A DNA stretch of 64,000 nt from an uncultured Eisenbergiella sp. (GTDB lineage Bacteria; Bacillota; Clostridia; Lachnospirales; Lachnospiraceae): positions 1 through 64,000 of the forward strand of contig CANQVD010000003.1 of the NCBI GenBank assembly GCA_947627215.1. The letters are read 5' to 3'. The first letter of the stretch is position 1, and each line of letters begins with the position of its first letter. The notes beneath the pieces were generated by a model that made no database searches, was not told the origin of the DNA, and saw only the letters and a list, made by a program, of their open reading frames with translations. Positions 5,663 to 58,340 of the stretch are shown here, piece by piece. Position numbers and translations under genes: made by a program.

Positions 5663-7018
5663 TCAGTTGCTGCCTCTGGCCTTGCTGCTGCCGCCGGACG
5701 CATACAACCGGCTGGTCCCATCCAGCAACTTGGCATACTCCCCGTTGTCCGGAGGGAAGCCGTACTGCGCGAGGACGGAATCGACCAGTGCGATGCGCGC
5801 CGCCTCTGACCGGATGAAGGCAAGATCTGCGGAGCAGGTCGTGCGCCCTTCCAGGTTCTCGGCAGCGAGGATCAGATACAGATCCGTGTCGCTGAGGCTG
5901 TCCGTCCTGACCCTGTCCTCTTCCGTCACCTTTACGAAGTCTATTCCGTTCAGGTAGGCGGTGACGAGGCCATAGCTGAAGATCACGCCGTCCGCCAGCA
6001 GCTGACGCCGCAGCTTCCGGCTGATCTCTTCCGTATCCTCAGGACACCCGGTCTTCCCCGCGATGATGGCCTGGATAGCCTCGCGCCGATGCAGGGCCGC
6101 TTCCCGCAGGATATCGGCCGCCTTCTTTCGCACGGCTTTTCTTGCATTCCTCGCGCTCTCCTGTTCGGTGAGCTCTTTTCCTTTCCGGCTCATGCGGATC
6201 AGGCATACGGCCTGCGTATGGTCGAAGCGCACGTACCAGTACTCCCCGCCGTCGGCAAGGATGTTCCGGACGCCGTCGTAGTCCGCGCTCTCATGTCTCT
6301 CATCCAGAGAGAACTCGCGCACGACCTCCCATTTGCCGGAATAGTGCTCGCCTCTGACGGATGCGGGGGCCTCCTTGACACCCGCCTGTGCCAGCGCACG
6401 CCGGATCCTCTCCTCATTTGCCTGCCGCTTCTCATCGGCTGCCGCACGGATGCTCATGCCGAGGATGTCGGTGGGGTTAGCCGCCGTGGCAAGGATCTCA
6501 TTGCGCTTTTCGACATCGCGCACCTTTTCCAGGGCGATATAGTCGGTGATGGAAAGCTGGAAACCGGCCTTCTCCCGTCTCTTGATCTCCTTCTGGTCGA
6601 GCTTTGCGATGTTCAGCCGGTGCTTCACCGTGGAAGCGGAGAACCCGGTCTTTTTACAGATGGTATCCACCGTATCGCCGAGGTCCAGCATCATCTGGAA
6701 GCCCTGGGCCTGTTCCACCGGCGTGATGTCCTCCCGCTGCATGTTCTCCAGCAGCATGATGGATATCTGGTCGTTCATGGACAGCCCTTCCGCGATCCTG
6801 CAGGGGACCGCCGTGAGCCCGGCCAGCTTGGAAGCAGCGAGCCTACGGTGCCCGATCAGCACGGTATACCTTCCGTTCTCAGCGGGAACGACCGTCAGGT
6901 TCTGCATGATGCCCTTCTTTTTGATCGAATCCGTCAGTTCCTGCAGGTTCCCGATGTTCCGTCTCGGATTGTACGGATGGGGATCCAGCAGCTTTACATC
7001 TATCTCTTTCTGGATCAT
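5663..7018 (-). CDS. ParB/Spo0J-like DNA-binding protein
   Basis: 451 residues from MIQKEIDVKLLDPHPYNPRR (AAAGGA, 5 bases spacing). The ParB N-domain is clear: NPRR near residue 20, then VLIGHRRLAASKLAGL (the GxRR box) and LLENMQREDITPVEQAQGF. An HTH follows (DTVDTICKKTGFSASTVKHRLNIAKL). The C-terminal 220 residues are unlike chromosomal Spo0J and end in a Ser/Gly tail. I see no ParA in the window, so it may act in partition with a ParA elsewhere or as a ParB-type regulator. No canonical parS was found; the GTACCC palindromes are possible sites. Confidence 0.88.
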   Translation of the reverse strand: MIQKEIDVKLLDPHPYNPRRNIGNLQELTDSIKKKGIMQNLTVVPAENGRYTVLIGHRRLAASKLAGLTAVPCRIAEGLSMNDQISIMLLENMQREDITPVEQAQGFQMMLDLGDTVDTICKKTGFSASTVKHRLNIAKLDQKEIKRREKAGFQLSITDYIALEKVRDVEKRNEILATAANPTDILGMSIRAAADEKRQANEERIRRALAQAGVKEAPASVRGEHYSGKWEVVREFSLDERHESADYDGVRNILADGGEYWYVRFDHTQAVCLIRMSRKGKELTEQESARNARKAVRKKAADILREAALHRREAIQAIIAGKTGCPEDTEEISRKLRRQLLADGVIFSYGLVTAYLNGIDFVKVTEEDRVRTDSLSDTDLYLILAAENLEGRTTCSADLAFIRSEAARIALVDSVLAQYGFPPDNGEYAKLLDGTSRLYASGGSSKARGSN

Positions 7019-7169
7019 ATTTTTCCTTTCTGCGGCATTCGTCCGCTGTTCTGACAGGCACATATCGGCCTGCCGCTGATGACCGTTATAATAATAGGAA
7101 GGAACGCGCGGCATATGCCGTACGTCCCCTCCCATATCGGTCTGTTTCCGTATCCTTCCCTGCAGTGCG

Positions 7170-8342
7170 TCACGCATTGTTCGGCAGGTTCTGCATCGCA
7201 AAGAATTTAAGCTGTCTGGACGCCTTCTCCTGCATGTCGAACAACTGCTGCAGGCCCAGAGGCTTCCCTTTTTCCTGCTCCATGTAGAACGCATGGTCTT
7301 CGATGATCCAGAAGATGTAGTAATAGATCTCGAATCCCGTGCAGGTTCCACCGCACTCCTCGCTCATGAGTTCCTGCGCACGCTTCGTGCTCCGGATCGG
7401 GAGGTCAGCCCTCGTGGCGATGTCGTCCAGCACCTTCTGCGGGTTCGTGACGGTCACGCCCGCCAGTTTCTTCATCAGGGCGCTGCTGTCCTCGAACATG
7501 CTGTAGATCATACGGCACTGTTCACGGAAATCCTCCACGTGGCAGCCCTTGTGCCGAAGCTTCAGCGGCTCGCCGATGCGCATCCGGGTATTGCCGCAGA
7601 TCAGCTCAGGAACCAGCGTAGCGCTGTTGCGTCCGATGTCGCTGGTCACCATCCGCAGGACGAACTTCGCGCCATCGACATCCACCTGCGTGCCGGAACT
7701 GTTGACGCTGTTCACCAGCTCCTCCTCCATGAGCGCATCGTTCATGTAGAACGTTGCCTGCGTCATCTCGTGGGAAGTATTGCACCCGGCGAACTCAGAG
7801 GACGAGAACTTCTCCTGCATCTCTTCCAGCAGGATCCGCAGAAGATCGGCTACCGGCATGACCGTGTAGTCCCGTTCATCGCCGCTCATCACCGCAGACA
7901 CCTTGTCGTCCCTGACGAGGATCAGTGCCTTGCTGGTGAAATGGCCAAGGAACATCTTCAGCGTCTCCGCCCTCTCCTTCGGGCTCAGCGGGGAATGGTA
8001 TGGCTTGTCATCATAGGTCATGATGGACATGCCGGAGATCCCAGCACGGTCGCAGAGGGATTTCAGGGCCGTGTAGCGGATCGGGACCGTGCGCAGCTTA
8101 TCGTCCCAGGGGAACTTCAGCATGAGCTGCATGTCCTCCATGCACTCTTCCACTGCCGAACGGTCCACATCGATCGCGTGCTCCTTAATCACGGCATCCG
8201 TGAACAGCGGCGCGTTGTCCAGTTCCACAGGCTCGATCTCATTGGTGAACACGAGGATCCACCGGTCAGACTCTTTCTGCTTCTCGAAAAAGTCCAGCAT
8301 CTGTTCCTGCTCTTCGAAAACTATCTGTTCTCTGTCTTTCAT
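7170..8342 (-). CDS. Hypothetical protein, possibly DUF932-like
   Basis: 390 residues from MKDREQIVFEEQEQML; AAAAGGAG lies 6 bases before the ATG at 8342, better than the ATG at 8375. The layout, with an acidic N-terminus, a long mixed domain (LKSLCDRAGISG...SHEMTQATFYMND) and a helical C-terminus, faintly resembles plasmid and phage DUF932 proteins, but I cannot confirm it. It is first in its operon, behind a promoter and terminator-like leader hairpin (8429-8534), with the ParB-like gene downstream. Confidence 0.6.
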   Translation of the reverse strand: MKDREQIVFEEQEQMLDFFEKQKESDRWILVFTNEIEPVELDNAPLFTDAVIKEHAIDVDRSAVEECMEDMQLMLKFPWDDKLRTVPIRYTALKSLCDRAGISGMSIMTYDDKPYHSPLSPKERAETLKMFLGHFTSKALILVRDDKVSAVMSGDERDYTVMPVADLLRILLEEMQEKFSSSEFAGCNTSHEMTQATFYMNDALMEEELVNSVNSSGTQVDVDGAKFVLRMVTSDIGRNSATLVPELICGNTRMRIGEPLKLRHKGCHVEDFREQCRMIYSMFEDSSALMKKLAGVTVTNPQKVLDDIATRADLPIRSTKRAQELMSEECGGTCTGFEIYYYIFWIIEDHAFYMEQEKGKPLGLQQLFDMQEKASRQLKFFAMQNLPNNA

Positions 8343-10440: not shown

Positions 10441-11045
10441 AGGACATCCGGATCGATCCGTTCGAAGCTGAACACTCCTGTCCAGGGGTCCGCGTCCCAT
10501 CCGAGCTGATCCCGCTCCGTGCGCTTGATACGCTTGTTCCAGGCGCGGCGCAGGTCGTTCCAGTCCGAGAACCCTTCGCTCATGGCCTCTGATGCTGTCA
10601 TCGCCTTCAGCCGCTCCACACGCACGTCCTTCACCAGCAGGAAGATCCGTGCCGCCTTCTTTGGCATCCGAGCGGAAGGGCTCCAGACTCCCGGCCAGGT
10701 ATATCCTTTCCCGTTCGGGAACCGCCTGTCATATTCTGCAACGCCCATTCCTTCGTCCGCAAGGTACATATATCCGACGATCTGATCGGACGTCCCGTCC
10801 GCATACACCGGCGCCCAGGTTTCTTTGACATAGAGGACGTCGCCCTCTTTGTATGGGAGCCGTATCTCATGTGCGTCGCCGTCCTCCCACCAGGACCACG
10901 CGAAGCCGCCGTGGTATCTGCGGATATTCTCCGTCTGAGGCTGCGGCCTGACCGGCAGCCGGAACGCGGTCTTTATGCCTGACCTGACGGCCAGCACCAT
11001 GTCGTTGTCAAAATAGACCGGCTTTGCATGTCTCTCTTTCTGCAC
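10437..11045 (-). CDS. Phage-type ASCH-like ('morphogenetic') protein
   Basis: 202 residues with a GTG start at 11045 set by AAAGGAGG 8 bases upstream. The sequence has the pattern of a family common in phages and prophages: KPVYF near the N-terminus, GDVLYVKETWAPVY, then WSPSARMPKKAARIFLLVKDVRVERLK and AMSEGFSDW, ending DPWTGVFSFERI. This family is often annotated as an ASCH-like or morphogenetic protein; ASCH folds bind nucleic acid. It overlaps the next gene upstream by 38 bases, as in compact phage operons. Confidence 0.75.
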   Translation of the reverse strand: MQKERHAKPVYFDNDMVLAVRSGIKTAFRLPVRPQPQTENIRRYHGGFAWSWWEDGDAHEIRLPYKEGDVLYVKETWAPVYADGTSDQIVGYMYLADEGMGVAEYDRRFPNGKGYTWPGVWSPSARMPKKAARIFLLVKDVRVERLKAMTASEAMSEGFSDWNDLRRAWNKRIKRTERDQLGWDADPWTGVFSFERIDPDVL

Positions 11046-11820
11046 GTGAAATTCCTCCTTTCGGCCTATTCGGCCCCATCTTGGGATCGCGTTTGACCAT
11101 CTCCGGCATCATCACGTCGATCGCCGCACCGTCGCCGATGTGCGCGACGCTCTCGGTATCCCCTCTGCACTCCGCGACCTTTCTGCCGTATTTGACGGCC
11201 TGATCCCTGTTCAGGGCATTGAAATAGCAGAGCGTCGAGCGGCTGCCGTCACGGTCCTCTGTCACGAACAGGTTCGTCCCGCCGAGGTTGCGGCCCATCC
11301 CGAAGGCCGAGAGCATGTACATCGGTTCCCCGCAGGTTTCCCAGACACTGCCGTCATAGAGCAGGTATCTGTCCGCGGCCCTGCGGATCAGCGCCACATC
11401 CTTCTCCTCAGATGAGGATATGATGACGGATCTTTTGGAATATCCCATATCGTCCTCATCAGATCTCTCCGGCACGCAGCGCTCCAGCGTATCTACGATA
11501 TACTGAGGCCGCCGCCAGATCAGGCTGACTGCGTGACCGCGGGCGACCCGGACGGGTTTAAACAGCCGTCCGCGGTACGCCCGGTACTCCTCCGAGAAGA
11601 TACGGCGCTCGCCGTCCATGCGTTCAAAATCCTTCACGCACGCCGCGTCCTCGTACACGGTCCTGAACGTGCGTGTCACCATCGCCACGGGGAAGTCCTC
11701 TGCTGTCACCTCAGGGATCTCAACGTCCACTTTTCTGGGCGTATACATCCTGCGTGGGATCCTGTGCCGCCTTGTGGGCAGGAAATCCACCGACGCTTTG
11801 TATCTGATCGTGAGTCTCAC
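11008..11820 (-). CDS. Hypothetical protein, paralogue of 11856-12620
   Basis: 270 residues; the start is GTG at 11820 (VRLTIRYKASVDFLPTRRHR) with AAAGGAG 7 bases before it. It is about half identical to the next gene upstream over its whole length (VDVEIPEVTAEDFPVAMVT, FERMDGERRIFSEEYRAY, LERCVPE, FGMGRNLGGT, CYFNALNR, MMPEMVKRDP). No family is recognised. It extends 38 bases into the ASCH-like gene, and its extra C-terminal tail may be an artefact of that overlap. Confidence 0.7.
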   Translation of the reverse strand: MRLTIRYKASVDFLPTRRHRIPRRMYTPRKVDVEIPEVTAEDFPVAMVTRTFRTVYEDAACVKDFERMDGERRIFSEEYRAYRGRLFKPVRVARGHAVSLIWRRPQYIVDTLERCVPERSDEDDMGYSKRSVIISSSEEKDVALIRRAADRYLLYDGSVWETCGEPMYMLSAFGMGRNLGGTNLFVTEDRDGSRSTLCYFNALNRDQAVKYGRKVAECRGDTESVAHIGDGAAIDVMMPEMVKRDPKMGPNRPKGGISRAERETCKAGLF

Positions 11821-11855
11821 AGCATCACTCCTTTCACCTCTCACATGCAGGATCT

Positions 11856-12620
11856 TTAGAACTTGTGGTCCTTTTGGGGATCCCGCTTTACCATCTCCGG
11901 CATCAGCACATCGATCACAGCACCGTGGCCGATGCGGGCAACGCTTTCGGTGTCCCCTCTGCGCTCCGCCACACTCCTGCCGTACATGACAGCCTCAGTT
12001 CTGTGAAGGGCGTTGAAATAGCAGCGTGACGAGATGTTCTCGTTGTAGTGCTCGGTCACGGACATGCTCGTCCCGCCGTGATTGCGGCCCAGCCCGAAGG
12101 TCACGATATAATACATCGGCTCCCCACAGGCTTTCCAGGCGCAGCCGTTGAAAAGCAGGTATCTGTCCGCGGCTTTGCGGATCGTCCTCGTATCCTCCTC
12201 CTTAGATGAGGATACGATGATAGAGTTCTCTGTGAACTCACCTTCGTCACTTTCCCAGCTGCAATGCTTCGGCACGCAGCGCTCCAGCGTTTCGGCGATA
12301 TATCCGCCCCTCTTCAGGATCAGGCTGATCGCGGCGCCATGCGTGACCCGCACGGGTTTGAACAGCTGCCCATGATACGCCCGGTATTCCTCCGAGAAGA
12401 TACGGAAATCACTGTCCATGCGCTCAAAGTCCTCATAGCACGCCGCCTTTTCGCATACAGACTGGTATGTGTGCGTCACCATCGCCACGGGGAAATCTTC
12501 CTCTGTCACCTCGGGGATCTCCACGTCCACGTACGCGGGCACACACCTTATGCGGGGGTTCCTGTGCCTCTTTGTGGGCAGGAACATTTCCGTGGCCAGA
12601 AATTCGATCGACAGTTTCAT
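11856..12620 (-). CDS. Hypothetical protein, paralogue of 11008-11820
   Basis: 254 residues from MKLSIEFLATEMFLPTKRHR. The ATG at 12620 overlaps the upstream stop (ATGA) and has GGAGGAGAAGGA before it. It shares the motifs listed for its paralogue and differs mainly at the ends. The fold looks mixed alpha/beta without transmembrane segments. The pair arose by tandem duplication. Confidence 0.7.
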   Translation of the reverse strand: MKLSIEFLATEMFLPTKRHRNPRIRCVPAYVDVEIPEVTEEDFPVAMVTHTYQSVCEKAACYEDFERMDSDFRIFSEEYRAYHGQLFKPVRVTHGAAISLILKRGGYIAETLERCVPKHCSWESDEGEFTENSIIVSSSKEEDTRTIRKAADRYLLFNGCAWKACGEPMYYIVTFGLGRNHGGTSMSVTEHYNENISSRCYFNALHRTEAVMYGRSVAERRGDTESVARIGHGAVIDVLMPEMVKRDPQKDHKF

Positions 12621-13177
12621 TCCTTCTCCTCCTTTTCTTCTTTCATCGCCAGGGCCTTTGCCATCTGCACATACCACTGGCCGTCGATGTCCTCGTCCGT
12701 GATGTCCCGGATCTTTGACGGATCCTTCACCCGTCTCCACCAGCATTCCGCGCCATAGACGATCCGCTTCAGCGAGAACACCCAGATGCCGGGGTTGGTC
12801 ACCGTGCTGGTCTCCAGGACGCCGGTCTCCTCGGTGAACGAGGTGTGCAGCATCCAGGGGAGCTCGCCCAGGTACATGCCCAGATACGTCTTCCCGGCTT
12901 CCTCTCCTGCCATCCTGACAGAACAGAGCGTCCCGGCCTCTCCCCGGTTCCATATCTTTATGGGCTCAGTCTCGATGCCGTTGATCGTCAGCGGAAATTC
13001 GATGTACCTGTATTTGTAGTTCGGGCATTCCCTGCAGGCGTCCTCCGGTATCTCGTGGGCGTTCGCCAGCATCGCACTGCCGTCCTCGCCTCTTAGACAG
13101 CTGCAGACTCCCTTTGTGAGCGTCGGCAGCCAGTACAGGCAGTCGTGCCTTTTGGGATCCTTTTCCTTCTGTTCCAT
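12617..13177 (-). CDS. Cys-rich hypothetical protein
   Basis: 186 residues from MEQKEKDPKRHDCLYWLPT (AAAAGGAGG, 5 bases spacing). Cysteines cluster in the first third (DCLYW, GVCSCLRG, ACRECPNY), suggesting a metal-binding site. The C-terminal part (ECWWRRVKDPSKIRDITDED) is followed by a Glu/Lys tail. No family is recognised. Translation is coupled to the next gene. Confidence 0.65.
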   Translation of the reverse strand: MEQKEKDPKRHDCLYWLPTLTKGVCSCLRGEDGSAMLANAHEIPEDACRECPNYKYRYIEFPLTINGIETEPIKIWNRGEAGTLCSVRMAGEEAGKTYLGMYLGELPWMLHTSFTEETGVLETSTVTNPGIWVFSLKRIVYGAECWWRRVKDPSKIRDITDEDIDGQWYVQMAKALAMKEEKEEKE

Positions 13178-13209
13178 GGTCTCCTCCTTTTCTTTTTTTT
13201 GGGCCTTGT

Positions 13210-13230
13210 GCGTACCCTCCGTGGGTACGC
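13210..13230. repeat. Dispersed palindrome GTACCC-n5-GGGTAC (copy 1)
   Basis: GCGTACCC-n5-GGGTACGC, arms of 8 bp, between the stop at 13237 and the ribosome site of the next gene. Related palindromes lie at 24199-24255, 48624-48648 and 48872-48892. Confidence 0.65.
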
Positions 13231-13236
13231 AGCCCC

Positions 13237-13533
13237 TCATTTCTGTTCTCCTTTCACCACTCTGCTGATGAAGGAATAGAGATACACCATCGCGACGGCG
13301 ATGCCGATCGTGACGCATCCCTGCATCTCGGCGTCTCCGTCCAGTACGGGCATCGCGAGCACCGCAGCGCCAACGACGATCCCGCAGGCACAGACGGCCG
13401 CGATAGCTGTCTCCATCCCGTTCTCCTTCAGAAAGCGGTGGATCTGGATCCTCTTCTTGATCCGATGCCGGATCTTTTTCTGCTCCTGGATCCTTGCATA
13501 CTCGTTTTCGATGAACTTTGCGTACATATCCAT
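13237..13533 (-). CDS. Small membrane protein
   Basis: 98 residues, MDMYAKFIENEYARIQEQKK, AAAGGAG 9 bases before the ATG. A basic amphipathic N-terminal part (residues 1-38) precedes two hydrophobic helices (about 42-62 and 72-90). It is first in the operon that runs to 10437 and follows a strong promoter and attenuator-like leader. Function unknown. Confidence 0.7.
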   Translation of the reverse strand: MDMYAKFIENEYARIQEQKKIRHRIKKRIQIHRFLKENGMETAIAAVCACGIVVGAAVLAMPVLDGDAEMQGCVTIGIAVAMVYLYSFISRVVKGEQK

Positions 13534-13613
13534 CTTGTCCTTCTCCTTTCGATGGAGCAGAGAGCATAGTGTGTGTTCTTGGCCTTTTTGGGGCCCTCCT
13601 CCTTTCTTTGGGC

Positions 13614-13644
13614 ATAAAAAAAGAGCAGAGAAAAAACTCTGCTC
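13614..13644 (-). terminator. Leader hairpin with U-tract (putative attenuator 3)
   Basis: GAGCAGAG-tttttt-CTCTGCTC followed by TTTTTTT on the minus strand, between the promoter at 13690-13718 and the first gene of the operon at 13533. Confidence 0.75.
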
Positions 13645-13898: not shown

Positions 13899-15857
13899 TT
13901 TAGAATCCACCCGCTCTCGCGAGCGGGAACCCAGCCCTTGCATAGACAATCCGTGCACCCAGATTATTTCAATCCACCCGCTCTTGTGAGCGGGAACCCA
14001 TTGCGACAAGGCCATCGACTGCATCAGTTTTAATCCACCCGCTCTCAGGAGCGGGACCAGGAAAAAAAAAGAAAAATATCGACAACTTATACATTTCAAT
14101 CCACCCGCTCTTACGAGCGGGAACGCCGGTGAGCGTTTTGTTGTGCGCGATCGTCTCATTGCATTTCAATCCACCCGCTCTCACGAGCAGGAACGTGATA
14201 GCGTACGCTGATCATGATGATGTTGCCATTTCAATCCACCCACCCTTTCGAGTGGGAATCAGGTACTACGGATCGATTTTAGGCCCCGGCCATTTCAATC
14301 CACCCGCTCTCGCGAGCGGGACCCGGCGGATCACGATGGAGACAGTGGAACGGCTCATTTCAATCCACCCGCTCTCGCGAGCGGGACCTCCTATAGCCCC
14401 TGCCTTCGATGTCGTGGGTGAGATTTCAATCCACCCGCTCTCACGAGCGGGACCACTACGGGATCGCGCTCATGGCGCTGGAGACGGACATTTCAATCCA
14501 CCCGCTCTCACGAGCGGGACCCGGCGATCCAAATCAGTACACCACTCAACAGATAGAATTTCAATCCACCCGCTCTCACGAGCGGGACCCCGTCGAAATA
14601 GGAATTCATGACTTCCGCGACTATTTCAATCCACCCGCTCTCACGAGCGGGACCAAAATCCCAATCATCCGGCAGGGACAACATTATCATTTCAATCCAC
14701 CCGCTCTCACGAGCGGGACCACGACATAATGATCCTAACGCCACAATATGAGCAGATTTCAATCCACCCGCTCTCACGAGCGGGACCGGGGATTTTTTGT
14801 GATGTGACCCAAGATTGACCAATTTCAATCCACCCGCTCTCACGAGCGGGACCGTGGATTACGATGTGCGGGAGGTGCCGGCGGATGCCATTTCAATCCA
14901 CCCGCTCTCACGAGCGGGACCCACAGTGGGGAACGATACTTAATTCCGCTGTTAAATTTCAATCCACCCGCTCTCACGAGCGGGACCCTGATTGCGTGTT
15001 TAGCTCTAACGTAATTGCCGTTAATTTCAATCCACCCGCTCTCGCGAGCGGGACCCGGCGGATCACGATGGAGACAGTGGAACGGCTCATTTCAATCCAC
15101 CCGCTCTCGCGAGCGGGACCCACGCCGTTAATTGCGTTAATTCTGTTAATTTTTATTTCAATCCACCCGCTCTCACGAGCGGGACTATCATATTCCTGCA
15201 GTTCCGCAGCCTTTTCCTTAAATTTCAATCCACCCGCTCTCGCCACCCGCTCTCGCAAGCGGGACCTTGGGAACGTATCCAAGCCCACGACTTTAGTCGT
15301 GCGGAGTGTCAAGAGCGGGAACCAGGTACTACGAATCGATTTTAGGCCCCGACCATTTCAATCCACCCGCTCTCACGAGCGGGACCTTCCACCGAGCGGA
15401 CTCCCCGCTTGTATGCAGCAGCCATTTCAATCCACCCGCTCTCACGAGCGGGACCGATGCCGCCGGCGGTGTAGGTTTCGTAGATTTTCTATTTCAATCC
15501 ACCCGCTCTCACGAGCGGGACCGTACACCTGTGCGCAATGGCAGCGGACAGTACACCATTTCAATCCACCCGCTCTCACGAGCGGGACCGAGACAGCGCC
15601 CACCACGGTGACAGAGCCCCCGCGATTTCAATCCACCCGCTCTCACGAGCGGGACCACGTTGCGCGCACAGATGTGCGCAATGCAAGCGATTTCAATCCA
15701 CCCGCTCTCACGAGCGGGACCGCGGATTCCCTGACAGCCTCCAGATACAGAGGTTAAATTTCAATCCACCCGCTCTCACGAGCGGGACCCTCCCGTACCC
15801 TGCCGCCAGCATGCAGCTTCGCCCAATTTCAATCCACCCGCTCTCACGAGCGGGACT
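13899..15857 (-). CRISPR. Type I-C CRISPR array, about 30 repeats
   Basis: The 32-base repeat, read on the minus strand, is GGTCCCGCTCGTGAGAGC followed by GGGTGGATTGAAAT, the typical I-C ending. Spacers are 31-37 bases. The leader side is at 15858 because the repeats at low coordinates (13899, 13966, 14027, 14093, 14163, 14228) are degenerate. The spacer at 14324-14356 is identical to 15056-15088, and 14260-14291 is nearly identical to 15324-15354. The repeat at 15222 has an internal 13-base duplication, and at 15284-15323 a TnpB-element tail has replaced most of a repeat. The spacer at 14590-14622 matches the plasmid's own rep gene. Confidence 0.98.
15284..15312 (+). mobile_element. TnpB-element tail inside the CRISPR array
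   Basis: CCCACGACTTTAGTCGTG followed by CGGAGTGTCAA matches the right end of the TnpB element at 30183 and the relic at 13872. It is followed by only the last 11 bases of a repeat (15313-15323), so it interrupts the array. Confidence 0.7.
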
Positions 15858-24894: not shown

Positions 24895-25704
24895 TCATAG
24901 ATGCGAAAGACCCGCGACCTCATCCTCTGTCTCCAGCATCCTGTCATAGCTCTTCATCGCGAGCTGCGTCGCTTCCATCTCTATGGTCCGGAACGCCTTC
25001 CGGTACATGCGGTTCAGGGTCCGGGGGTTCGCCTTCCTCCGGTCCACCTTCGCGTCCAGGGAGAGCCCCGCGACCTGTCCCCAGACAGACCTGCGCGGCA
25101 TCGCCTGCCCGTTCTTGCCCTGGAACACCGGTCCTTTGTATATCCCGCGTTCCTGGATGAAATCCAGCAGCTCCAGCCGCAGCGGTTCAGGGATATGTAT
25201 CACCCGTGCGTGCCCTTCGATATCCACTACCGCCGTTCCCTGGTCCACGACATCGACGGTAAGGTAGGCCAACTCGTTGACCCGAAGTCCCACAGACCCA
25301 AGTGTCCTGACGAGGAGGTACGCTTTCTTGTTGTTCATCCTCTTGGCCGCCTGGAGGAGCCTGACATATTCCGCGCGCGTCAGCTCCGGCATGTCGTCCC
25401 TGGGCCCCCTCTCATGAAAATCCGTGAGCATCCAGTCCCTCTTCCCGTAAAAGTTCAGGAAGCTGTTCAGGCAGGATATCCTGTTGCATGCCGTCAGATG
25501 GGCAAACCCCTGGTCGAGCATCCAGTCATACCATTCCATGACCGTGACCTCGTCGATCTCCCGGTCATCCGCAAGATACTCCAACAGATATGTCATAATA
25601 TTTTCATAGCATCGGATCGTCTCTTCTTTTCTTCCTTTGTTCCGCAGGCTCTCTATGAACCTGGATATCTTTTCCTCGTCGATCGTCAATCTTTCTTCTG
25701 CCAT
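24895..25704 (-). CDS. Tyrosine recombinase-like protein lacking its catalytic C-terminus
   Basis: 269 residues. An N-terminal SAM-like core-binding domain (1-95) is followed by a catalytic-domain fold with the first Arg in LGSVGLRVNELAYL (Arg 141). The region where HxLRH is expected reads NPRTLNRMYRKAF. The usual LGHSSINTTRIY segment with the second His and the nucleophilic Tyr is absent, replaced by ATQLAMKSYDRMLETEDE. The protein is therefore probably not an active recombinase; it may bind DNA as a regulator or architectural factor, or it is degenerate. Confidence 0.75.
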   Translation of the reverse strand: MAEERLTIDEEKISRFIESLRNKGRKEETIRCYENIMTYLLEYLADDREIDEVTVMEWYDWMLDQGFAHLTACNRISCLNSFLNFYGKRDWMLTDFHERGPRDDMPELTRAEYVRLLQAAKRMNNKKAYLLVRTLGSVGLRVNELAYLTVDVVDQGTAVVDIEGHARVIHIPEPLRLELLDFIQERGIYKGPVFQGKNGQAMPRRSVWGQVAGLSLDAKVDRRKANPRTLNRMYRKAFRTIEMEATQLAMKSYDRMLETEDEVAGLSHL

Positions 25705-26040: not shown

Positions 26041-26895
26041 TCAGTACAGATCGTATACCTCAGGCGCCTCGCAGCCCGGATCGACGTACTCGACCTCATA
26101 GTCATCGAAGGACTGCGGCTCAGAGACCTTTGCAGTGATCTTCACGCTGCGGTGGACCTTGGCGCTGTTGACAGGGGCGGACATCCCGTCATGCTGCCAC
26201 CAGTACAACCTGCACACCTCCATGCTCCCCTCGGGGCGCGCGGCAGCGGCATCGCCCTCGAACAGGGTCATGAGGGCTTTCTTCAGGACTTCCGCATCCT
26301 CCTGGGAGAATCCGGTGAGCTGGCCAAGCTGGAGGCTGACGCTTCCCTTGACCACGTAGAGGCCGAACTTGACGCCGTACTTCGTGCCCATGCGGTCAGA
26401 GGACTTCTCTTCCTTGTCAGAGCCGTTCACGCTCTTGGTGATCTGGTACTCCGTGATCTCGACGGGGTCAACGCTTCTGGCGGTGCGCACGGTCACGGGC
26501 CCGCGGATGCCGACCGAAGCCGGTACGCCCTGGAATGCCAGCACGGCGCCGAAGCTGCGCATGTCGATCCACTTTTTGCATGCGGCGTCGATGACCACGC
26601 TGCTGTCGGCCTTCTTGCCCTTAGAGAACTCGCCGTAGATATCATTGGCGGCCTTCAGGCGGGCGTGGAGGGACTTGCACCCGTCGTCCTCTCTCCCGTC
26701 GGACTGCACGAACACCGGGAGCCCCATGTCCTGCATGCGGTTCCTGATCTTGCGCTTGATGCAGACGTCCGTGATCTCGCCGTAGCCGTACACGTCGGTA
26801 CGGGGCTTGTTGTTCTCCAGAGGGTCTCCGTTGGGGTTCGCACCCTCCACCGCTACGATTGCCAGGAAATCGATCTTGCCTTTTAAGTTCGTCAT
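26041..26895 (-). CDS. cas7: Cas7, type I-C (Csd2)
   Basis: 284 residues, MTNLKGKIDFLAIVAVEGAN. It forms the crRNA-binding backbone of the I-C Cascade. The N-terminus VEGANPNGDPLENNKPRTD and the GPVTVRTARSVDPV region with IRGP are typical of Cas7/Csd2. Length is normal and the frame intact. The gap to cas8c (26896-26959) has two copies of GGAAAAAACTGA. It is the last gene of the cas operon; no cas4-cas1-cas2 follows. Confidence 0.95.
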   Translation of the reverse strand: MTNLKGKIDFLAIVAVEGANPNGDPLENNKPRTDVYGYGEITDVCIKRKIRNRMQDMGLPVFVQSDGREDDGCKSLHARLKAANDIYGEFSKGKKADSSVVIDAACKKWIDMRSFGAVLAFQGVPASVGIRGPVTVRTARSVDPVEITEYQITKSVNGSDKEEKSSDRMGTKYGVKFGLYVVKGSVSLQLGQLTGFSQEDAEVLKKALMTLFEGDAAAARPEGSMEVCRLYWWQHDGMSAPVNSAKVHRSVKITAKVSEPQSFDDYEVEYVDPGCEAPEVYDLY

Positions 26896-26959: not shown

Positions 26960-28942
26960 TTAGGCGGATACGCGCTCTTCGCCTGTCCCTTCGGGCTCGG
27001 CAGCCTCAGGCTCTGTGCCATCGGTCTCTGCGCCGTCAGTCTCTGTGCCGCCGGCCTCCTTGTCCTTTTTCTTGGGGCCGCGGACGAAGTCGAAATAGGA
27101 CTCCTGGGAATAGAACCCGCAGAGGTAGATATCTTCCAGCGGGCCGATCTTCTCAAAATCCCCTTCCCGGAAGAGACCCGTGATGTTCATGATAGCGTTC
27201 TCATAGTACCTCGCTTCTCCGCCCAGCCGTTTGAGGTAAGGCTGGAGCTTGTTGTGGAGGAGCATCCACGTCTTTGCGGGGGACTGAGAGAACTTCGCCA
27301 TGAGCTTCTTGGCGTTGGTCGGCCGTTTCCTGCTCGGGTTCTTGATGTAGTACAGCTCCTCCGCCTTGTCAGCGACGGCTAAGAGCCGTCCGTACAGATA
27401 AGATCTGTCCCGGTTCTCCTTATCCAGCTTCAATACAGGGACCTCCTTCCCTCTTGCCGCGCGGTCCTCCTTCACCAGGGAACACGCCAGGGACACCATG
27501 CGCCTCCAGTTGCTCTCGCTGCCCGCGCCTGCGGGGTTCGACGCGCGCCTGACCGCCTGCTTGACGATATCGGGAGCCATCCTAGTGCCGTCCAGCACCG
27601 CACTCATCACGCAAAGGATCAGCCTGGCATACATCTCCTCGTTCCACTCTAAGGACAGGATCACGTTCTCGCCCTGCTGTACGGGCTTGCCGTAGAGCAG
27701 CTTCGCCATATCGTACACGGACGGTATCCCATAATACTCATACATCTTCTCCGTTTTGGCATCATAGCGCGTATGGATCCAGCCGCACCTGGACTGCCAG
27801 CTCTTGATCCGCCGCAGGTACTCGGATGTGGCGAGCTGTCCGTAGAAGCGCACCGACGTCCGGCCCTTGATGGGATCCTGCAGGACGAGAATGTGCATGT
27901 TCTCGGGCATGTCGGCGGGGAGGCGGTAGCCTGCCAGCGCCGCACGGAAGCGTTCGACATACCTGCGCTCCGCACGCGCCTCCTTCTCCTCCTCGGTCTC
28001 CTCCTCTTCCATGTGCGCGTCCGTCAGCCTGGGCACCGCCGCGCCGTTGTCTCCCCAGATGATCAGGACCATGTCCTTGGCCCGGACCGCGTTCCGGCTG
28101 ACCAGCCATCTGAGCGCATTGGCGACCTTCTGGGAATCCTCAAAGCCGATGGAGTACGCATTCTCCGCGCTCAGGAGGCGCCCCATGACGGTAGGCTCGT
28201 TGGCGATGCCGTTGGAGAACAGCTTGCCCATATCCCCCGCGGAGAGCAGGAACTTCGGATGCATGGTCGTGAGCGGCTGTACCGTGCCGGAGATCATGGA
28301 CAGCCCCATCTGGCGCGGCTGCGAACGGATGTAGTCCTGCCACTTCTTATGGAGGGACCTGTCCTTCCAGCAGTCGCAGCACTGCCCCGTCTCGGGATCG
28401 TCCCCGGTCCCTTCCTCAACCCGGAAGCGCACCTTGTACGCCAGAGCCGCCTTCTTGACGGTCCCGTCGTCCTGCCTCTCCAGCGCTCCCGCGCCGAGCA
28501 GGTCCGACATCATCCCTGCCGTCGATAAGTACTTATACACCGCCTCCGCCTTGGGATGGGTATGGGGCGAATCGATCCAGTCCTTCAGGTTTTCCATGTA
28601 CGCCCGGTGGTATGCCGGCGCCTCGGGGTCGTCCGCCGCTTCGCCGTAGTCCTCCGCCAGGTATTTCAGGCCGTCGCACAGGCCGTGCGGGCTGATGCCG
28701 CTGCTCCTGCAGTGTGATGTCTCCGTCACGGAGATCACCGTGTACGCGGACCCGTCCGTCTTATCGACCTGTTTCGCGCCCAGGAACTTCCCGTCCGCGT
28801 CGATGCATACTGTTACATCGGCGGACATGGCCGCATGATAGACCGGCAGGAGCACCTGCCCGCCGTCCTTCGGATACAGCCCGGCGATCTGCTCGTTCCG
28901 ATCGTACAGCTCCAGCAGTTCTGCAAATAGATTGAAGTTCAA
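26960..28942 (-). CDS. cas8c: Cas8c, type I-C large subunit (Csd1)
   Basis: 660 residues. The start is TTG at 28942 (LNFNLFAELLELYDRN), overlapping the cas5 TGA, with GAGGAGG about 10 bases upstream. It recognises the PAM and helps unwind DNA in the I-C Cascade. Family marks: LLPVYHAAMSADVTVCID near the N-terminus, ADMGKL-like and SENAYSIGFEDSQKVANALR in the middle, and FYGQLATSEYLRRIKSW. The C-terminus carries a Thr/Glu/Asp/Gly-rich tail (GGTETDGAETDGTEPEAAE) beyond the usual end. Confidence 0.95.
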   Translation of the reverse strand: MNFNLFAELLELYDRNEQIAGLYPKDGGQVLLPVYHAAMSADVTVCIDADGKFLGAKQVDKTDGSAYTVISVTETSHCRSSGISPHGLCDGLKYLAEDYGEAADDPEAPAYHRAYMENLKDWIDSPHTHPKAEAVYKYLSTAGMMSDLLGAGALERQDDGTVKKAALAYKVRFRVEEGTGDDPETGQCCDCWKDRSLHKKWQDYIRSQPRQMGLSMISGTVQPLTTMHPKFLLSAGDMGKLFSNGIANEPTVMGRLLSAENAYSIGFEDSQKVANALRWLVSRNAVRAKDMVLIIWGDNGAAVPRLTDAHMEEEETEEEKEARAERRYVERFRAALAGYRLPADMPENMHILVLQDPIKGRTSVRFYGQLATSEYLRRIKSWQSRCGWIHTRYDAKTEKMYEYYGIPSVYDMAKLLYGKPVQQGENVILSLEWNEEMYARLILCVMSAVLDGTRMAPDIVKQAVRRASNPAGAGSESNWRRMVSLACSLVKEDRAARGKEVPVLKLDKENRDRSYLYGRLLAVADKAEELYYIKNPSRKRPTNAKKLMAKFSQSPAKTWMLLHNKLQPYLKRLGGEARYYENAIMNITGLFREGDFEKIGPLEDIYLCGFYSQESYFDFVRGPKKKDKEAGGTETDGAETDGTEPEAAEPEGTGEERVSA

Positions 28943-29655
28943 GCCAACACCTCCTCGTCCTTGGGAATCCCGAACTTCTTGATCCCCATCGGCTTGACCG
29001 GGACCGTCAGGGTGCATTCCTCCGGACGGCAGAAACGGATGATCCCCTTCTCCATCACGGGGTTCCAGAACCGCCTGGTCATCTGCCCCCTGTCCTCCGG
29101 CCTGACAGCCTCATCGGCATAGGTCATGCCGTGGAACATGAGCCCGAACGTGAACGGCCCTTCCTGACCGTCGTAGCAGCCTTCCCCTTCGCCGAACACA
29201 CAGGGCTGCACATCCCCCTGGCACTCGCGGGACCCGAGGAAGATATCCCTCCTCCCGCCGCGCCGGATGTATTTCTCGGCCATGGCCTCATGCTTGCCCG
29301 GGTTCCTGTCGCACGCCAGCTCCGGATGGTTCTCATTCCACTCGAAGTGTGCGCGCACCTGATAGCGGACATCCCTCAGATAAGTATAGAAGGATAAGTC
29401 CTTCCCGCCGTTGTACTTGGGGACCAGGATCCCCTTCGACTGCGTCCGGATCTCGTTCATGATGCGGACCTCGTCAATGATCCATACCAGCGTGGGCTTA
29501 TAATACACCGACTGGAGGATCCCTTTGAGCGCCTCGTAGGTGGGGATCCCGTACGAGAACTTCTCGCCCCCGGTCCTCGTGAGCGGATCGGAGAACAGGG
29601 CGTAATCGCCCGTCACTTCAAATTCGAGCTCTCTGCTCCTAAAACTCTTGATCAC
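28939..29655 (-). CDS. cas5c: Cas5d, type I-C crRNA-processing nuclease
   Basis: 238 residues, start GTG at 29655 overlapping the upstream stop (GTGA). In I-C systems Cas5 cuts the pre-crRNA and holds the 5' handle. It has the glycine-rich and KFSYGIPTYEALKGIL N-terminal region and a Lys-His pair (K121-H122 in NPGKHEAMAEKY) where the family's catalytic Lys-His sits. Intact. The cas3 that normally precedes cas5 is absent; a two-helix membrane protein gene takes its place. Confidence 0.95.
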   Translation of the reverse strand: MIKSFRSRELEFEVTGDYALFSDPLTRTGGEKFSYGIPTYEALKGILQSVYYKPTLVWIIDEVRIMNEIRTQSKGILVPKYNGGKDLSFYTYLRDVRYQVRAHFEWNENHPELACDRNPGKHEAMAEKYIRRGGRRDIFLGSRECQGDVQPCVFGEGEGCYDGQEGPFTFGLMFHGMTYADEAVRPEDRGQMTRRFWNPVMEKGIIRFCRPEECTLTVPVKPMGIKKFGIPKDEEVLA

Positions 29656-30182: not shown

Positions 30183-30330
30183 TTTGACACTCCACACGGC
30201 TAAAGTCGTGGGATTCTTGCAACCTACCGCTTTACGTGGCTGGCCAGTCCATTTCTGGGAGGCCGCAGTGCAAGATATGGGTGTGCCATCACCCTTCCTG
30301 AGACAGGACATATAGTCTCTCAGGCAGCAT
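30183..30330 (-). ncRNA. Putative omega RNA (reRNA) of TnpB element 1
   Basis: The 3' end region of the element, downstream of and overlapping the tnpB end, with several hairpins and the conserved terminal stem. In this superfamily the right-end transcript guides TnpB to cleave the empty donor site. Inferred by position. Confidence 0.55.
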
Positions 30331-31453
30331 GTCTGGCATCGCTGCCGCCGACATACTCAGTCGAGCTGCATATATTCCATGCGCCGACGATATCTCTATG
30401 TGTGCGGAATCCGCACTCGCAGACAAAGTTCCTGTCATCCGCGTGATGCCGTTTTCCGCAGTTCGGGCAAGTCTGGCTTGTGTATGCAGGGTTCACATAG
30501 AGCACTTCGATCCCGGCAAGTCTCGCTTTGTATTCGATGTACTGCGCGAGACGATAAAAACTCCAGGTATGAAGCGATGGGTTGTTTTTCCGACTTGTTC
30601 TTGTCGTGGTGCGGATGTTGGACAGCCGCTCCATTTTGATCACTTTTACATGGTGTTTCTCAGCCGTTTTGATGATCTCACGGCTAACCTTGTGGTCGAT
30701 GTCCTTCATGATGCGCTGCTCTTTGTTGTTGATCCGAGCGAGCGCCTCCTGATGCTTTGCCTTCTGCAGGGCTTTTCTCTTCGCGGCGAAGTGCCTGCGC
30801 ATCGCTTTATTGCGGCGTCCATTGCCATAGAACTTCACGCTGCCGTCAGAGCACCTGCTTACGGCTGGGCATTTGATGCCAAGGTCTATACCCATGAAGC
30901 AGCCTTCTCCGTCAGATGCCTCCTGCTCTGGTTTCTCATACACGATCTGAGCCATGATCGTACCGTTTTTGCGGACGATACGCATGGTTCCCAGCTTTGC
31001 ACCGAAGAAAAGGGCCTTCTGCCTCTCCGTCATTCTGGTGCGGACAGCGATCCTCTTGGTCCTGCCGTCCATCATAACAGGGAACTCGATATCCGTACCG
31101 CGAACCCTAAAACCCTGGTTGTTTATATAACAACACGGTCTCTTTAGTATGGTGACAGCGGCCTGTTGGACATTTTTGCCCAGGTTGGAGCGTCTGGCAT
31201 TCCGGCGGTCTGCTTCACGGCATGCCTTTTGATACTTCTTGAAAACTGAATTCGCATCCCGAACGCATTGGTTTCGAAGCGCGGATGGCAGATATGCATC
31301 GACGTCTTTGCTCGTGAACTTTGCGATGGATCTGCCATCGACTGCATCGGCAACCAGCCTGTTGACTGTTGCGATATATGTGGTCATCATCTCTGATACC
31401 AGCATATACTGCTCTTTTGTCAGATACAGTCTTACTGTTTCTGATAACTGCAT
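30320..31453 (-). CDS. tnpB: TnpB RNA-guided nuclease (element 1)
   Basis: 377 residues from MQLSETVRLYLTKEQYMLVS; AAGGAGG lies 6-7 bases before the ATG at 31453. RuvC residues are all present: D190 (GIDLGIKCPAV), E274 (VIKMERLSNI), D353 (HRDIVGAWNI); the zinc finger is CPNC...CECG (329-346). An intact TnpB, likely active as an omega-RNA-guided nuclease that favours retention of the element. It lies in the same direction as the cas operon and so may be transcribed with it. Confidence 0.93.
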   Translation of the reverse strand: MQLSETVRLYLTKEQYMLVSEMMTTYIATVNRLVADAVDGRSIAKFTSKDVDAYLPSALRNQCVRDANSVFKKYQKACREADRRNARRSNLGKNVQQAAVTILKRPCCYINNQGFRVRGTDIEFPVMMDGRTKRIAVRTRMTERQKALFFGAKLGTMRIVRKNGTIMAQIVYEKPEQEASDGEGCFMGIDLGIKCPAVSRCSDGSVKFYGNGRRNKAMRRHFAAKRKALQKAKHQEALARINNKEQRIMKDIDHKVSREIIKTAEKHHVKVIKMERLSNIRTTTRTSRKNNPSLHTWSFYRLAQYIEYKARLAGIEVLYVNPAYTSQTCPNCGKRHHADDRNFVCECGFRTHRDIVGAWNICSSTEYVGGSDARHAA

Positions 31454-31658
31454 GTTTTCACCTCCTTGTTCTGATCCTGCAGCTGCGGTCATTGCCGCAA
31501 AATAATGTGTACACAGTCCGATTTTCGAACAAAATTTTTAGCATCCAGCGGGCGAATCGCGGAACTAACTGTGTACGACCTGCACAGCCTTGTGCGACCA
31601 TTCAAAAAATGTTGGGCTTTCATCCCACTATTAAAATAGTGGGCTTTCCCGCTCAACC

Positions 31659-32958: not shown

Positions 32959-33174
32959 TCACCCCCGCACGAACAGGAACACTATGACCCCCAGCAGGAG
33001 CACCAGCGCGATCCCCGAAAAGATCTCTGCTCTTGTCCCGAGGCTTCTCTTCTGCTCACCGGTGCTGCCGCCGTTTTGCCGTCTGCCGAATGCTATCGCC
33101 AGGAATGTCAGGAACAGCAGGAACAGAACCAGCAGTGCGAGCGGCAAGTTGTACGATTCTAACAGGTCGAGCAT
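32959..33174 (-). CDS. Small two-helix membrane protein
   Basis: 71 residues: MLDLLESYNLPLALLVLFLL is one long membrane helix (about 8-30), a polar middle (GRRQNGGSTGEQKRSLGT) follows, and IFSGIALVLLLGVIVFLFV is a second helix. AAAGGAGG upstream. Start overlaps the recG stop (TGATG). Confidence 0.75.
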   Translation of the reverse strand: MLDLLESYNLPLALLVLFLLFLTFLAIAFGRRQNGGSTGEQKRSLGTRAEIFSGIALVLLLGVIVFLFVRG

Positions 33175-35264: not shown

Positions 35265-35318
35265 CGTTTCTTCCCTTAGTGCTTCCTTTCGCACTTCTAC
35301 CTGTGCGGTGTAACATTG

Positions 35319-50632: not shown

Positions 50633-50643
50633 AATGGCTGAAA

Positions 50644-51262
50644 GTGTTCCAAAAACGACGACATTTAGCTGAAAGTGTTCCAAAATCGACGACACTTTAA
50701 AAAAAAAGGGGAAAAGTGTTCCAAAAATGACGTCAAAATTCGTTGGATTTTCGCGAAAAAATTTTTTCAGATGCGGATGCCGAAAAGTGTTCCAAAAGTG
50801 GTGACACTTTACGTATTCTCGTTAATCAGATATGTATTATTGCGTTTTTATACGGGATTAAAACCATTTAATCCTGTATTATTTCTCCCAAAAAGCCCCG
50901 AACCCTTGTCGGTAAAGTGTCACTTTTCAGTATGAAAAGGCCCAAAACACACTATATATGGTGGTTTAGGGGTGCCCCAGGACACAAAAAAGCCCGAAAG
51001 TGTTCCAAAAACGACGACATTTGGTCGAGAGTGTTCCAAAAACGACGACATTTAGCCGAAAGTGTTCCAAAAACGACGACACTTTTTCCGGAAGACCCCC
51101 CGGGAAAAGCCCTCCCGAGGGGAGGGAAAAAGAAAACCTCAGAAAGTGTTCCAAAAACGACGACATTTGGTCGAGAGTGTTCCAAAAACGACGACATTTA
51201 GCCAAAAAGGTTCCAAAAACGACGACACTTAGCTGAAAGTGTTCCAAAAATGACGTCATTTA
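50644..51262. repeat. Iteron array, plasmid origin of replication
   Basis: Eleven copies of GTGTTCCAAAAACGACGACA with a 31-base period where tandem: 50644, 50675, 50716, 50787, 51000, 51031, 51062, 51146, 51177, 51208, 51239. Two blocks flank an AT-rich stretch (50815-50890). Iterons at a fixed helical phase next to Rep genes define a theta-type origin. The 50716 and 51239 copies are variant (ATGACGTCA instead of ACGACGACA). Confidence 0.9.
50850..50879. repeat. 30-base inverted repeat inside the origin
   Basis: ATAC-G-GGATTAAA-acca-TTTAATCC-T-GTAT in the AT-rich gap between iteron blocks, a candidate unwinding or initiator-recognition site. Confidence 0.55.
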
Positions 51263-51289: not shown

Positions 51290-52681
51290 TCACTCCAGGA
51301 CCAGGCGGTTGCGCTCTAGGTTAAGATCCTCCATCTCATCCTCGGACATGGGAATGAAATTGATCCTGAACACATCCCCGTCGATGGAATAGGACCTTAT
51401 GGCGATCTTTTTGTTCACGAACTCATCCAGAGCCGCACGGATCTCCTTCATGTTTTTCTTTTTGTTCGAGCTGGGGAATCTTGCGCTCATAAAAAAAGTG
51501 GAGTAACTGAGCATCCCAGAGCTTTTAGAGGACTGGACCGCCTTGATCCTTTCCTTTTGGATCGCGTAAAAGATGACCTGGGAGAGCTTGTTCTCCAGCG
51601 CCATCATCTCTCCGGAAAGGACGCTGATCACCTTCTGTTCGACGACGGCGCTATGGATGTAATCGCCGACGGTAACGGCGACGGTCTCCTCTCCGCTGTC
51701 GCCCTCCTTGATGACGACGTTGTCGAAAAAATTAAAGGATATGAGTTGTCCATCCTTCCGAAAGGTATAAGAGTAATCTGTGAACTTCTGGACCCTGTTC
51801 TTGATCCTCTCCTTTTCTAATGAGTTGACCTTCGGGCGGCCGATGACAGATCTGCACAGGTCCGTCAGATTGATCACGATCTTTTTGTCAGAGTAAAATG
51901 AATTGCGCGTCCTGGCGAGCAGGGCGGAAAAGATGTTGCGGTCCATGGAATCCATCGTCATGATCGGGTTGGTCTTCGCCTCTGTCGGGTTCACCGTCAT
52001 TAGGAGGACTTCCCTGCCGTCGTCATCATAGGTCTTGTTCTCCAGAAGATCGCTGTCCGGGGCCATCTCTTCCTTGTACTGCTTAGCGCTGAAGATGGGC
52101 AGGGGAATCAGGTCCTCGGGGAATCTGGACGTGAACGCGCCGATGTTGCCGTCCAGGGACTTCGTGATGTAATCCCAGATATCCGTGATCAGGTCCACCC
52201 GGAAGGCCAGATAGATCCTGCTGGGTGCGATCCTCTTAATGGCAGGATATGCGATCAGCATGCTGTCCGGGTCCCGAAACCACTCCTCCTCCTGGTCGTG
52301 GTTCTGCTGAACGATCTCCTCCAGGGACATCGTGCCGTACATCTGGCGGTACTCAGCGGGCGTGACGGTCTTAGCGACCCTGATGATGTGGGCGGCAGGA
52401 TGGTCAGGGCTGGTCAGCGGATATGTGTTGTAGTCATTCAAATAAGTTTTATGCCAGCGCAGCTTCTTGCGGTAACGGCTTTTCTTGACGGTCAATATTT
52501 TCTGGGACAAGCTGTACTTTTCAGACTCGCCGTCGAAATAGGAGTTCATGACTTCCGCTACCGAATGCTGCAGCGTGTCGGAGGGAAAGCTCAGGATGTT
52601 CTTCTGAGTCTCGAAGAACTCCCTCAGAGGTGTGCTGATGTGGTCTGTGATGTCCGTGATCAACTGGCGTGAATAGCTCAT
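51290..52681 (-). CDS. Replication initiator-like protein 2
   Basis: 463 residues from MSYSRQLITDITDHISTPL (TAGGAG upstream). It has a conserved N-terminal part (HSVAEVMNSYFDGESEKYSL), a middle domain with IYLAFRVDLITDIWDYITKS, and a C-terminal winged-helix-like part (KEIRAALDEFVNKKIAIRSY) near the end. It abuts the iterons and has an extended -10 promoter upstream (52728-52736). I infer the main Rep protein, but I do not recognise the family. Its segment at 52530-52562 matches a CRISPR spacer. Confidence 0.65.
   Translation of the reverse strand: MSYSRQLITDITDHISTPLREFFETQKNILSFPSDTLQHSVAEVMNSYFDGESEKYSLSQKILTVKKSRYRKKLRWHKTYLNDYNTYPLTSPDHPAAHIIRVAKTVTPAEYRQMYGTMSLEEIVQQNHDQEEEWFRDPDSMLIAYPAIKRIAPSRIYLAFRVDLITDIWDYITKSLDGNIGAFTSRFPEDLIPLPIFSAKQYKEEMAPDSDLLENKTYDDDGREVLLMTVNPTEAKTNPIMTMDSMDRNIFSALLARTRNSFYSDKKIVINLTDLCRSVIGRPKVNSLEKERIKNRVQKFTDYSYTFRKDGQLISFNFFDNVVIKEGDSGEETVAVTVGDYIHSAVVEQKVISVLSGEMMALENKLSQVIFYAIQKERIKAVQSSKSSGMLSYSTFFMSARFPSSNKKKNMKEIRAALDEFVNKKIAIRSYSIDGDVFRINFIPMSEDEMEDLNLERNRLVLE
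52530..52562 (-). other. Near-self protospacer with TTC PAM in rep gene
   Basis: Matches the array spacer at 14590-14622 at 30 of 33 positions. On the minus strand the protospacer is preceded by CATTC, so TTC, the standard I-C PAM, is directly adjacent. Mismatches fall at positions 1, 4 and 19 from the PAM. Confidence 0.85.
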
Positions 52682-58275: not shown

Positions 58276-58340
58276 AGCTGACAATCCATTTCCTTTTTGA
58301 ACGTGTATATATCTGCTTCATCTCTAATTGCCAGTGGGTA

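Follow-up and report, generated by a model that had tools for sequence, protein, structure and literature searches.

The assembly has 108 contigs and a size of 4.04 Mb, and the window (the whole 64,000-nt stretch of DNA that was analysed) runs from base 1 to base 64000 of its contig C3, which is 164,354 bp long. The window carries a CRISPR array, a type I-C cas operon and a probable replication initiator gene (rep), and one spacer of the array nearly matches a site in rep. The features are listed below by window coordinates and strand; C21 is another contig of the same genome.

5663..7351 (minus): ParB-family partition protein, by family match
13899..15857 (minus): CRISPR array with the 32-nt repeat GGTCCCGCTCGTGAGAGCGGGTGGATTGAAAT and its leader at the right end
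14590..14622 (minus): spacer, 17th of 27 counted from the leader end, with the crRNA sense on the minus strand
24895..25704 (minus): tyrosine recombinase gene, downstream of cas7c, at the place of cas4-cas1-cas2 in the C21 operon
26041..26895 (minus): cas7c, 284 aa, identified by NCBIfam and PADLOC
26960..29017 (minus): cas8c, 685 aa, with an acidic low-complexity tail and Cas_Csd1 as its only Pfam domain
28939..29655 (minus): cas5c, 238 aa, 64% identical to the Cas5c of C21
49591..50574 (minus): CDS beyond the iteron gap; five homologous plasmids have a CDS in the corresponding position (identity only 14-17%)
50643..51258 (plus): iteron array, probable origin, with 10 copies of AGTGTTCCAAAAACGACGACA within 3 mismatches, six of the nine intervals being 31 bp
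51290..52681 (minus): probable iteron-type replication initiator (rep), 463 aa, assigned from homologues and adjoining iterons
52530..52562 (minus): near-matching protospacer in rep (30/33)
52563..52565 (minus): 5'-TTC at the expected type I-C PAM position, preceding the protospacer

The gene at 51290-52681 very probably encodes an iteron-type replication initiator. Homologues were found by tblastn in 27 of 72,556 PLSDB plasmid records, all at less than 60% identity. The best are carried by 627-629-kb Lachnospira eligens plasmids (33.5% identity), on which ParB and ParA are encoded 2.5-4 kb away from it, and the homologue of an Alkalihalophilus plasmid is annotated as replication initiator protein A. 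One of nine aligned Rep sequences, not that of the window, matches the Pfam family RPA (PF10134, replication initiator protein A) at 3e-4. The window protein itself matches no curated family over cut-off, Rep_3 and the RPA type included, and the Rep profile matches PDB entries with E-values of 0.16 and worse. The 'rep-like' label in the original prediction is backed by homologues and iterons rather than by a curated family for the window protein. Among the 396 other genomes of the family, three encode a homologue (28-34% identity), and none of the 12 other genomes of the genus does. An exact-peptide scan of genome_contigs (84,980 species, contigs of at least 3 kb, with near relatives of the window genome possibly left out) found no relatives.

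The iterons lie directly downstream of rep. Copies of AGTGTTCCAAAAACGACGACA occur nowhere else in the 64-kb window, and none appear in 100 shuffles of it. The window and the five homologous plasmids have a common layout, in which rep is followed by a 0.7-1.1 kb gap with direct repeats and then by another gene in the same orientation. This succession of rep, iterons and CDS is how an iteron replicon is organised. C3 also encodes a T4SS coupling protein, a TraG P-loop ATPase (labelled VirB4-like here) and a cell-wall hydrolase; with ParB, these genes indicate that it is probably a conjugative iteron plasmid. The two contig ends do not overlap.

The array consists of 27 spacers, 29-38 nt in length, and 29 repeats, remnants included. 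The repeats become degenerate leftwards (the trailer end), which is why the right end is read as the leader side; the repeats on that side are intact. Type I-C repeats form a hairpin followed by an ATTGAAA(C/T)-type 3' end, which yields the 11-nt 5' handle of the crRNA and from which repeat orientation can be deduced. The plasmid repeat has a predicted 7-bp hairpin and then an end of this style: on the minus strand it finishes in GTGGATTGAAAT, so the crRNA is taken to read the minus strand. The repeat of the C21 array shares the GTGGATTGAAAT end and has a different stem. Comparison of the two leaders gave only short pieces (E-values of about 1 or worse), and the word GGTTCGCAC is visible by eye in both.

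The array is broken at about 15222-15354. One segment is present twice (14250-14323 and 15313-15386; 69/74 identical, all five differences being transitions), and the hairpin CACGACTTTAGTCGTG, found beyond the trailer at 13845, recurs at 15286, ahead of the second segment copy. This duplication suggests fusion of, or unequal crossing-over between, two versions of the array. Members of a duplicated spacer pair differ at 2 of 32 positions, so spacers can drift. One spacer is duplicated exactly (14324-14356 and 15056-15088). Beside the array, the region 11008-13615 contains tandem duplications, with direct repeats of 267 and 300 nt (77% identity) 0.8 kb apart; no protein family was found for its open reading frames.

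The spacer at 14590-14622 (AGTCGCGGAAGTCATGAATTCCTATTTCGACGG) and the site at 52562-52530 (GGTAGCGGAAGTCATGAACTCCTATTTCGACGG) on the minus strand share 30 of 33 positions. Re-comparison confirmed this match as originally described, together with the adjoining TTC and the mismatches at positions 1, 4 and 19. The type I-C PAM is TTC, on the 5' side of the protospacer. The protospacer covers the third base of a Ser codon, the codons for V-A-E-V-M-N-S-Y-F-D and two bases of a Gly codon. With uniform bases and both strands of the 164-kb contig, the chance expectation of a site with at most three mismatches is 7e-10 for one spacer and 1.8e-8 for all 27. No place in the genome other than the array copy and the rep site matches this spacer within three mismatches.

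None of the other 26 plasmid spacers matches C3 at more than 25 of 36 positions. Among the 25 spacers of the C21 array, one of low complexity reaches 28/36 and the others at most 24. In a DNA and translated comparison with C3, the rep spacer (score 51) and the low-complexity C21 spacer (62) exceed the maximum of 47 given by shuffled spacers (n=104). Other spacers of either array were rejected as memories of C3, since nothing convincing rises above the shuffled spacers. Exact 22-23-nt stretches of three of these 26 plasmid spacers gave no matches in IMG/VR; the remaining 23 were compared with C3 only.

The three mismatches bear on the origin of the spacer. Swapping the spacer letters into rep leaves the protein unchanged (TCG/TCA, GTA/GTC and AAC/AAT, all third codon positions). 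Among random triple substitutions, 0.6% are synonymous throughout, and 1.3% when transitions are favoured. This pattern points to changes within a coding rep gene and not to random decay of the spacer, although this array does show decay (the copies of its duplicated segment differ at 5 of 74 positions). The spacer would then come from a rep allele with an almost identical protein. The source may have been a sibling plasmid or an ancestor of this plasmid itself. Iteron plasmids with near-identical initiator proteins usually belong to the same incompatibility group.

The original prediction proposed that the array targets the rep genes of related plasmids and named a perfect protospacer in one of them as its test. 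The synonymous differences agree with an origin in a rep allele, but no related rep with a perfect or near-perfect protospacer was found in the family genomes, genome_contigs, IMG/VR, PLSDB or INPHARED, so that the main expectation of that test is not borne out. The protospacer is absent, at up to three mismatches, from the 396 sampled other genomes of the family; the codon-wobble pattern of VAEVMNSYFD occurs in no stretch of genome_contigs or IMG/VR; and the rep protospacer has one chance-level match in PLSDB (E-value: 0.9) and none in INPHARED. As the closest rep homologue is only 34% identical, this search has little power, and because the replicon is rare in the databases, the missing perfect match is weak evidence.

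The type I-C locus of the plasmid, 10 kb from the array, consists of cas5c, cas8c and cas7c only. All three proteins exceed the NCBIfam cut-offs (Cas5c, Cas8c/Csd1 and Cas7c), PADLOC detects the same set, and the three frames are open at full length. Cas5c has the Lys-His pair of its active site. An ordinary type I-C system had been assumed here. Its Cas5c, Cas8c and Cas7c are indeed present, but C3 has no cas3, cas4, cas1 or cas2. Three Cas3 queries found nothing on C3 (tblastn, 1e-3), and a search around the operon for a cas3 remnant gave only chance-level pieces (best E-value: 0.099). Cas4, Cas1 and Cas2 queries likewise found nothing on C3 at 1e-3, although the same queries found all three on C21. 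That contig carries a complete I-C locus (cas3, cas5c, cas8c, cas7c, cas4, cas1 and cas2) with its own array, and this locus has the only Cas3 above cut-off and the only Cas1 of the genome; weaker matches to the Cas3 models on other contigs are four of helicase type and one of HD type. The plasmid and C21 proteins are 64% (Cas5c), 52% (Cas7c) and 32% (Cas8c) identical.

Pfam shows only Cas_Csd1 in Cas8c and Cas_Cas5 in Cas5c, with no HNH insertion. The acidic, repeat-like tail of Cas8c (TETDGAETDGTEPEAAEPEG, about 26960-27080) is absent from the C21 protein. An exact-peptide scan of IMG/VR found no Cas8c relatives. A RecG-like gene at 33174-35294 was set aside as a candidate Cas3 substitute: it has matches to the RecG wedge and domain 3 and lies outside the cas operon, 3.5 kb away. 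TnpB-like genes occur at 30320-31492 and 57136-58284; the former precedes cas5c by about 0.7 kb, on the side that cas3 occupies in the C21 operon.

Cas3-less loci of this kind occur elsewhere. The Cas8c model PF09709 matches 89 stretches in 80 of the 397 family genomes. Among 60 Cas8c loci fetched by choice (those left out are mainly top-scoring and contig-end loci), 59 have cas3, and cas1 is missing from four. The exception, on contig C27 of genome G347 (loci L059 and L113-L115), has Cas5c, Cas8c and Cas7c without cas3, cas4 or cas1 at the locus. No Cas3 above cut-off was found in the whole G347 genome, its Cas1 is on another contig, and no CRISPR array was found on C27. The other genes on C27 (YqfD, SbcCD-like genes and one for a large serine recombinase) suggest that this locus is probably in an integrated element. 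In another genome, the Cas8c frame at G133:C33:68402-70951 (L050) is 899 aa long, and its Cas11-like region, at the C-terminal end of Csd1, is matched three times over, as though it had been triplicated.

Nine plasmid records carry a Cas8c relative, and six were examined, including two of the four from Lysinibacillus. The Monoglobus record and two Paenibacillus records contain cas3. The L. paracasei plasmid record (L070) was rejected as Cas3-less because, by eye, the HD-type start of a Cas3 follows cas7c at the record origin. The two Lysinibacillus plasmids (pHJ.T1 and pSSII-1) have only cas5c-cas8c-cas7c and an array; tblastn found no Cas3, Cas4, Cas1 or Cas2 in all of pHJ.T1 and in 153.7 of the 156.0 kb of pSSII-1, the plasmids alone being searched. 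Their arrays have three cleanly cut spacers each, none of which matches the two plasmids outside the arrays. With so few spacers and no match among them, rep targeting cannot be presented as a general trait.

In a FastTree phylogeny of joined Cas5-Cas7-Cas8 sequences, the three Cas3-less lineages are on separate branches. The window locus adjoins a 14-locus clade (support 0.996), Lysinibacillus is placed beside Paenibacillus, and G347 falls inside the 14-locus clade among Cas3-bearing loci (nearest-node support 0.59). From these separate branches, cas3 has probably been lost at least three times.

Faster drift of Cas8c after the loss of Cas3 was considered and rejected. Cas8c identity tracks the identity of Cas5 and Cas7 (r2 0.77 over 630 canonical pairs), and the plasmid Cas8c is more alike than they predict, with a mean residual of 4.0 points above the line against 36 canonical loci (canonical residuals range from -6.1 to +3.8, with an sd of 3.9). 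It is thus not decaying faster than Cas5c and Cas7c. High residuals also occur in the Lysinibacillus pair (+4.6 and +4.7) and in the Cas3-bearing L. paracasei locus (+7.1), and a floor effect at low identity may be the cause. The plasmid Cas8c departs from 10 of 53 near-invariant columns, more than canonical loci do.

One of these columns may be of interest. In the Cas8c motif LIS-ND-FTYRGRF, the Asn is present in 52 of 54 Cas3-bearing loci, distant subgroups included, and in L. paracasei. In the three Cas3-less lineages it is Gly (window), Ala and Ser (Fisher P 0.0003, uncorrected). The position was picked after viewing 213 near-invariant columns (53 in Cas8c, 63 in Cas5c and 97 in Cas7c), among which all three Cas3-less lineages depart at one Cas8c column, one Cas5c column and no Cas7c column. 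Among 400 random Cas3-bearing triples per protein, at least one such column was found in 1.75% for Cas8c and 1% for Cas5c, and of two hand-picked divergent triples one had a single Cas5c column. Divergence is greater in the Cas3-less three (3-14 departures each) than in the control triples (0-4), so the control flatters the result. The association of the Asn change with Cas3 loss is a lead and not a result. The aligned equivalents are at chain position 221 of D. vulgaris Cas8 and 225 of N. lactamica Cas8. If the Asn reads the PAM, PAM use by the window Cascade may differ and the TTC rule may fail.

The explanation to which we lean, as a moderately likely one, is that the spacer is a memory of rep from a near-identical and probably incompatible sibling plasmid, and that the plasmid Cascade excludes such siblings, alone or with the host Cas3. 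Each functional step of this model is one that we infer from sequence. Cas5c would cut array transcripts into crRNAs, and the Cas5c-Cas8c-Cas7c complex would scan for TTC next to a matching rep sequence. On an incoming sibling, an R-loop would form about 120 nt into rep, near its 5' end, and the bound Cascade would block rep expression by itself or recruit the C21-encoded Cas3 in trans. New spacers would require adaptation enzymes in trans. In type I systems the seed comprises positions 1-5, 7 and 8, and mismatches there hinder binding. Two of the mismatches, at positions 1 and 4, fall in this seed and would spare the rep of the carrier; in the absence of Cas3, binding to the carrier need not be lethal. 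The carrier may therefore be protected by the seed mismatches and perhaps also by the absence of Cas3, a reason that the original prediction overlooked. There is no second C3-derived spacer in either array, and so no sign of priming against the carrier. In the plasmid CRISPR-Cas survey PMC9071438, 66% of matched plasmid spacers target plasmids, which supports exclusion of siblings. Counting against it are the missing perfect protospacer, the single identified source among the 27 spacers, the drift possible in spacers, the Gly of the window Cas8c and the lack of matches of the Lysinibacillus spacers to the two plasmids; either the spacer or rep may have diverged. A wider version of the proposal, in which I-C Cascades form a recurrent class on mobile elements that lost Cas3 several times, changed the Cas8c Asn and act in incompatibility or exclusion by binding only, here against the rep of a sibling, is tentative and somewhat doubtful.

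Other explanations were considered for the same data. The spacer could have been acquired from the plasmid's own ancestor, with rep then escaping by synonymous changes, so that the match is a scar of autoimmunity. Changes that are synonymous only fit escape under protein constraint, two of the three mismatches are in seed positions, as would suit escape, and loss of Cas3 would also relieve autoimmunity. However, this seed enrichment is not significant (chance P = 0.11), the change at position 19 is unnecessary for escape, and there is no allele with which to polarise the three changes; we regard a self-acquired spacer as unlikely. It is very improbable that the partly matched crRNA tunes expression of the plasmid's own rep, and with it copy number. 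A Cas3-less effector, a PAM and a target so close to the start of rep would suit such regulation, but by the usual type I rules two seed mismatches should prevent stable binding, and no second regulatory spacer against C3 was found.

The locus could also be an inactive CRISPR relic, decayed or carried as cargo, from which cas3 and the adaptation genes have been lost. The four missing genes, the degenerate trailer repeats and the broken array segment would all be expected of a relic, and the Cas3-less proteins leave near-invariant columns more often than Cas3-bearing ones, as they would under relaxed constraint. Against this, the effector frames are full-length, the conservation of Cas8c is what that of Cas5 and Cas7 would lead one to expect, the leader-side repeats are intact and nothing beyond chance-level pieces of cas3 remains. 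The same three-gene set also recurs on separate branches, in two Lysinibacillus plasmids and in G347. An inactive relic appears quite unlikely. If binding alone suffices, this would be plasmid competition aimed at the gene that sets incompatibility, and it would account for the survival on mobile elements of cas3-less I-C modules, which are readily written off as incomplete. The case is testable with one plasmid, one spacer and one rep gene, in which natural mismatches separate self from sibling.

CRISPR-based competition between plasmids is already known, as is one Cas3-less I-C variant in print (PMC10910872). What would be new here is a Cas3-less I-C array aimed at the rep gene of kin. A limited literature search found nothing on plasmid-borne Cas3-less I-C modules or on such a system directed against a kin rep gene, and nothing on Lysinibacillus with type I-C; the passages of PMC11127173 contain nothing on I-C without Cas3. 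As in the survey PMC9071438, in which 36% of plasmid systems have adaptation modules versus 88% on chromosomes, the system is plasmid-borne, lacks adaptation genes and targets a plasmid gene. The main text of that survey does not use the word cas3, and so describes no cas3-less I-C system in those words. The variant of PMC10910872 is likewise a type I-C effector without Cas3, proposed there to act by binding, but its Cas8 and Cas5 are fused, whereas they are separate genes here, and the passages on it give no plasmid or rep target.

The I-C variant of huge phages (PMC7162821) is also an effector without Cas1, Cas2 and Cas3; there a helicase replaces Cas3, whereas the operon described here contains no helicase. 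Type I-C CAST (PMC11656645) is similar in that a type I effector lacking Cas3 is carried by a mobile element. No Tn7-type genes were seen among the neighbours scanned here; the TniQ model had no matches in the genome, but also none in 14 control genomes. The Cas9 system of CampyICE1 (PMC8743540) resembles it as an adaptation-less CRISPR system on a mobile element that is aimed at plasmids, but is of type II and retains its nuclease. Type IV-A (PMC11519345) and type V-M, or Cas12m (PMC11656645), carry out the nuclease-free plasmid interference that is proposed here. The IV-A complex acts with DinG and Cas12m is a different effector, whereas the putative effector of this plasmid is a type I-C Cascade for which action by binding only is a proposal. 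If binding alone suffices, type I would have converged with IV-A and V-M on nuclease-free plasmid competition.
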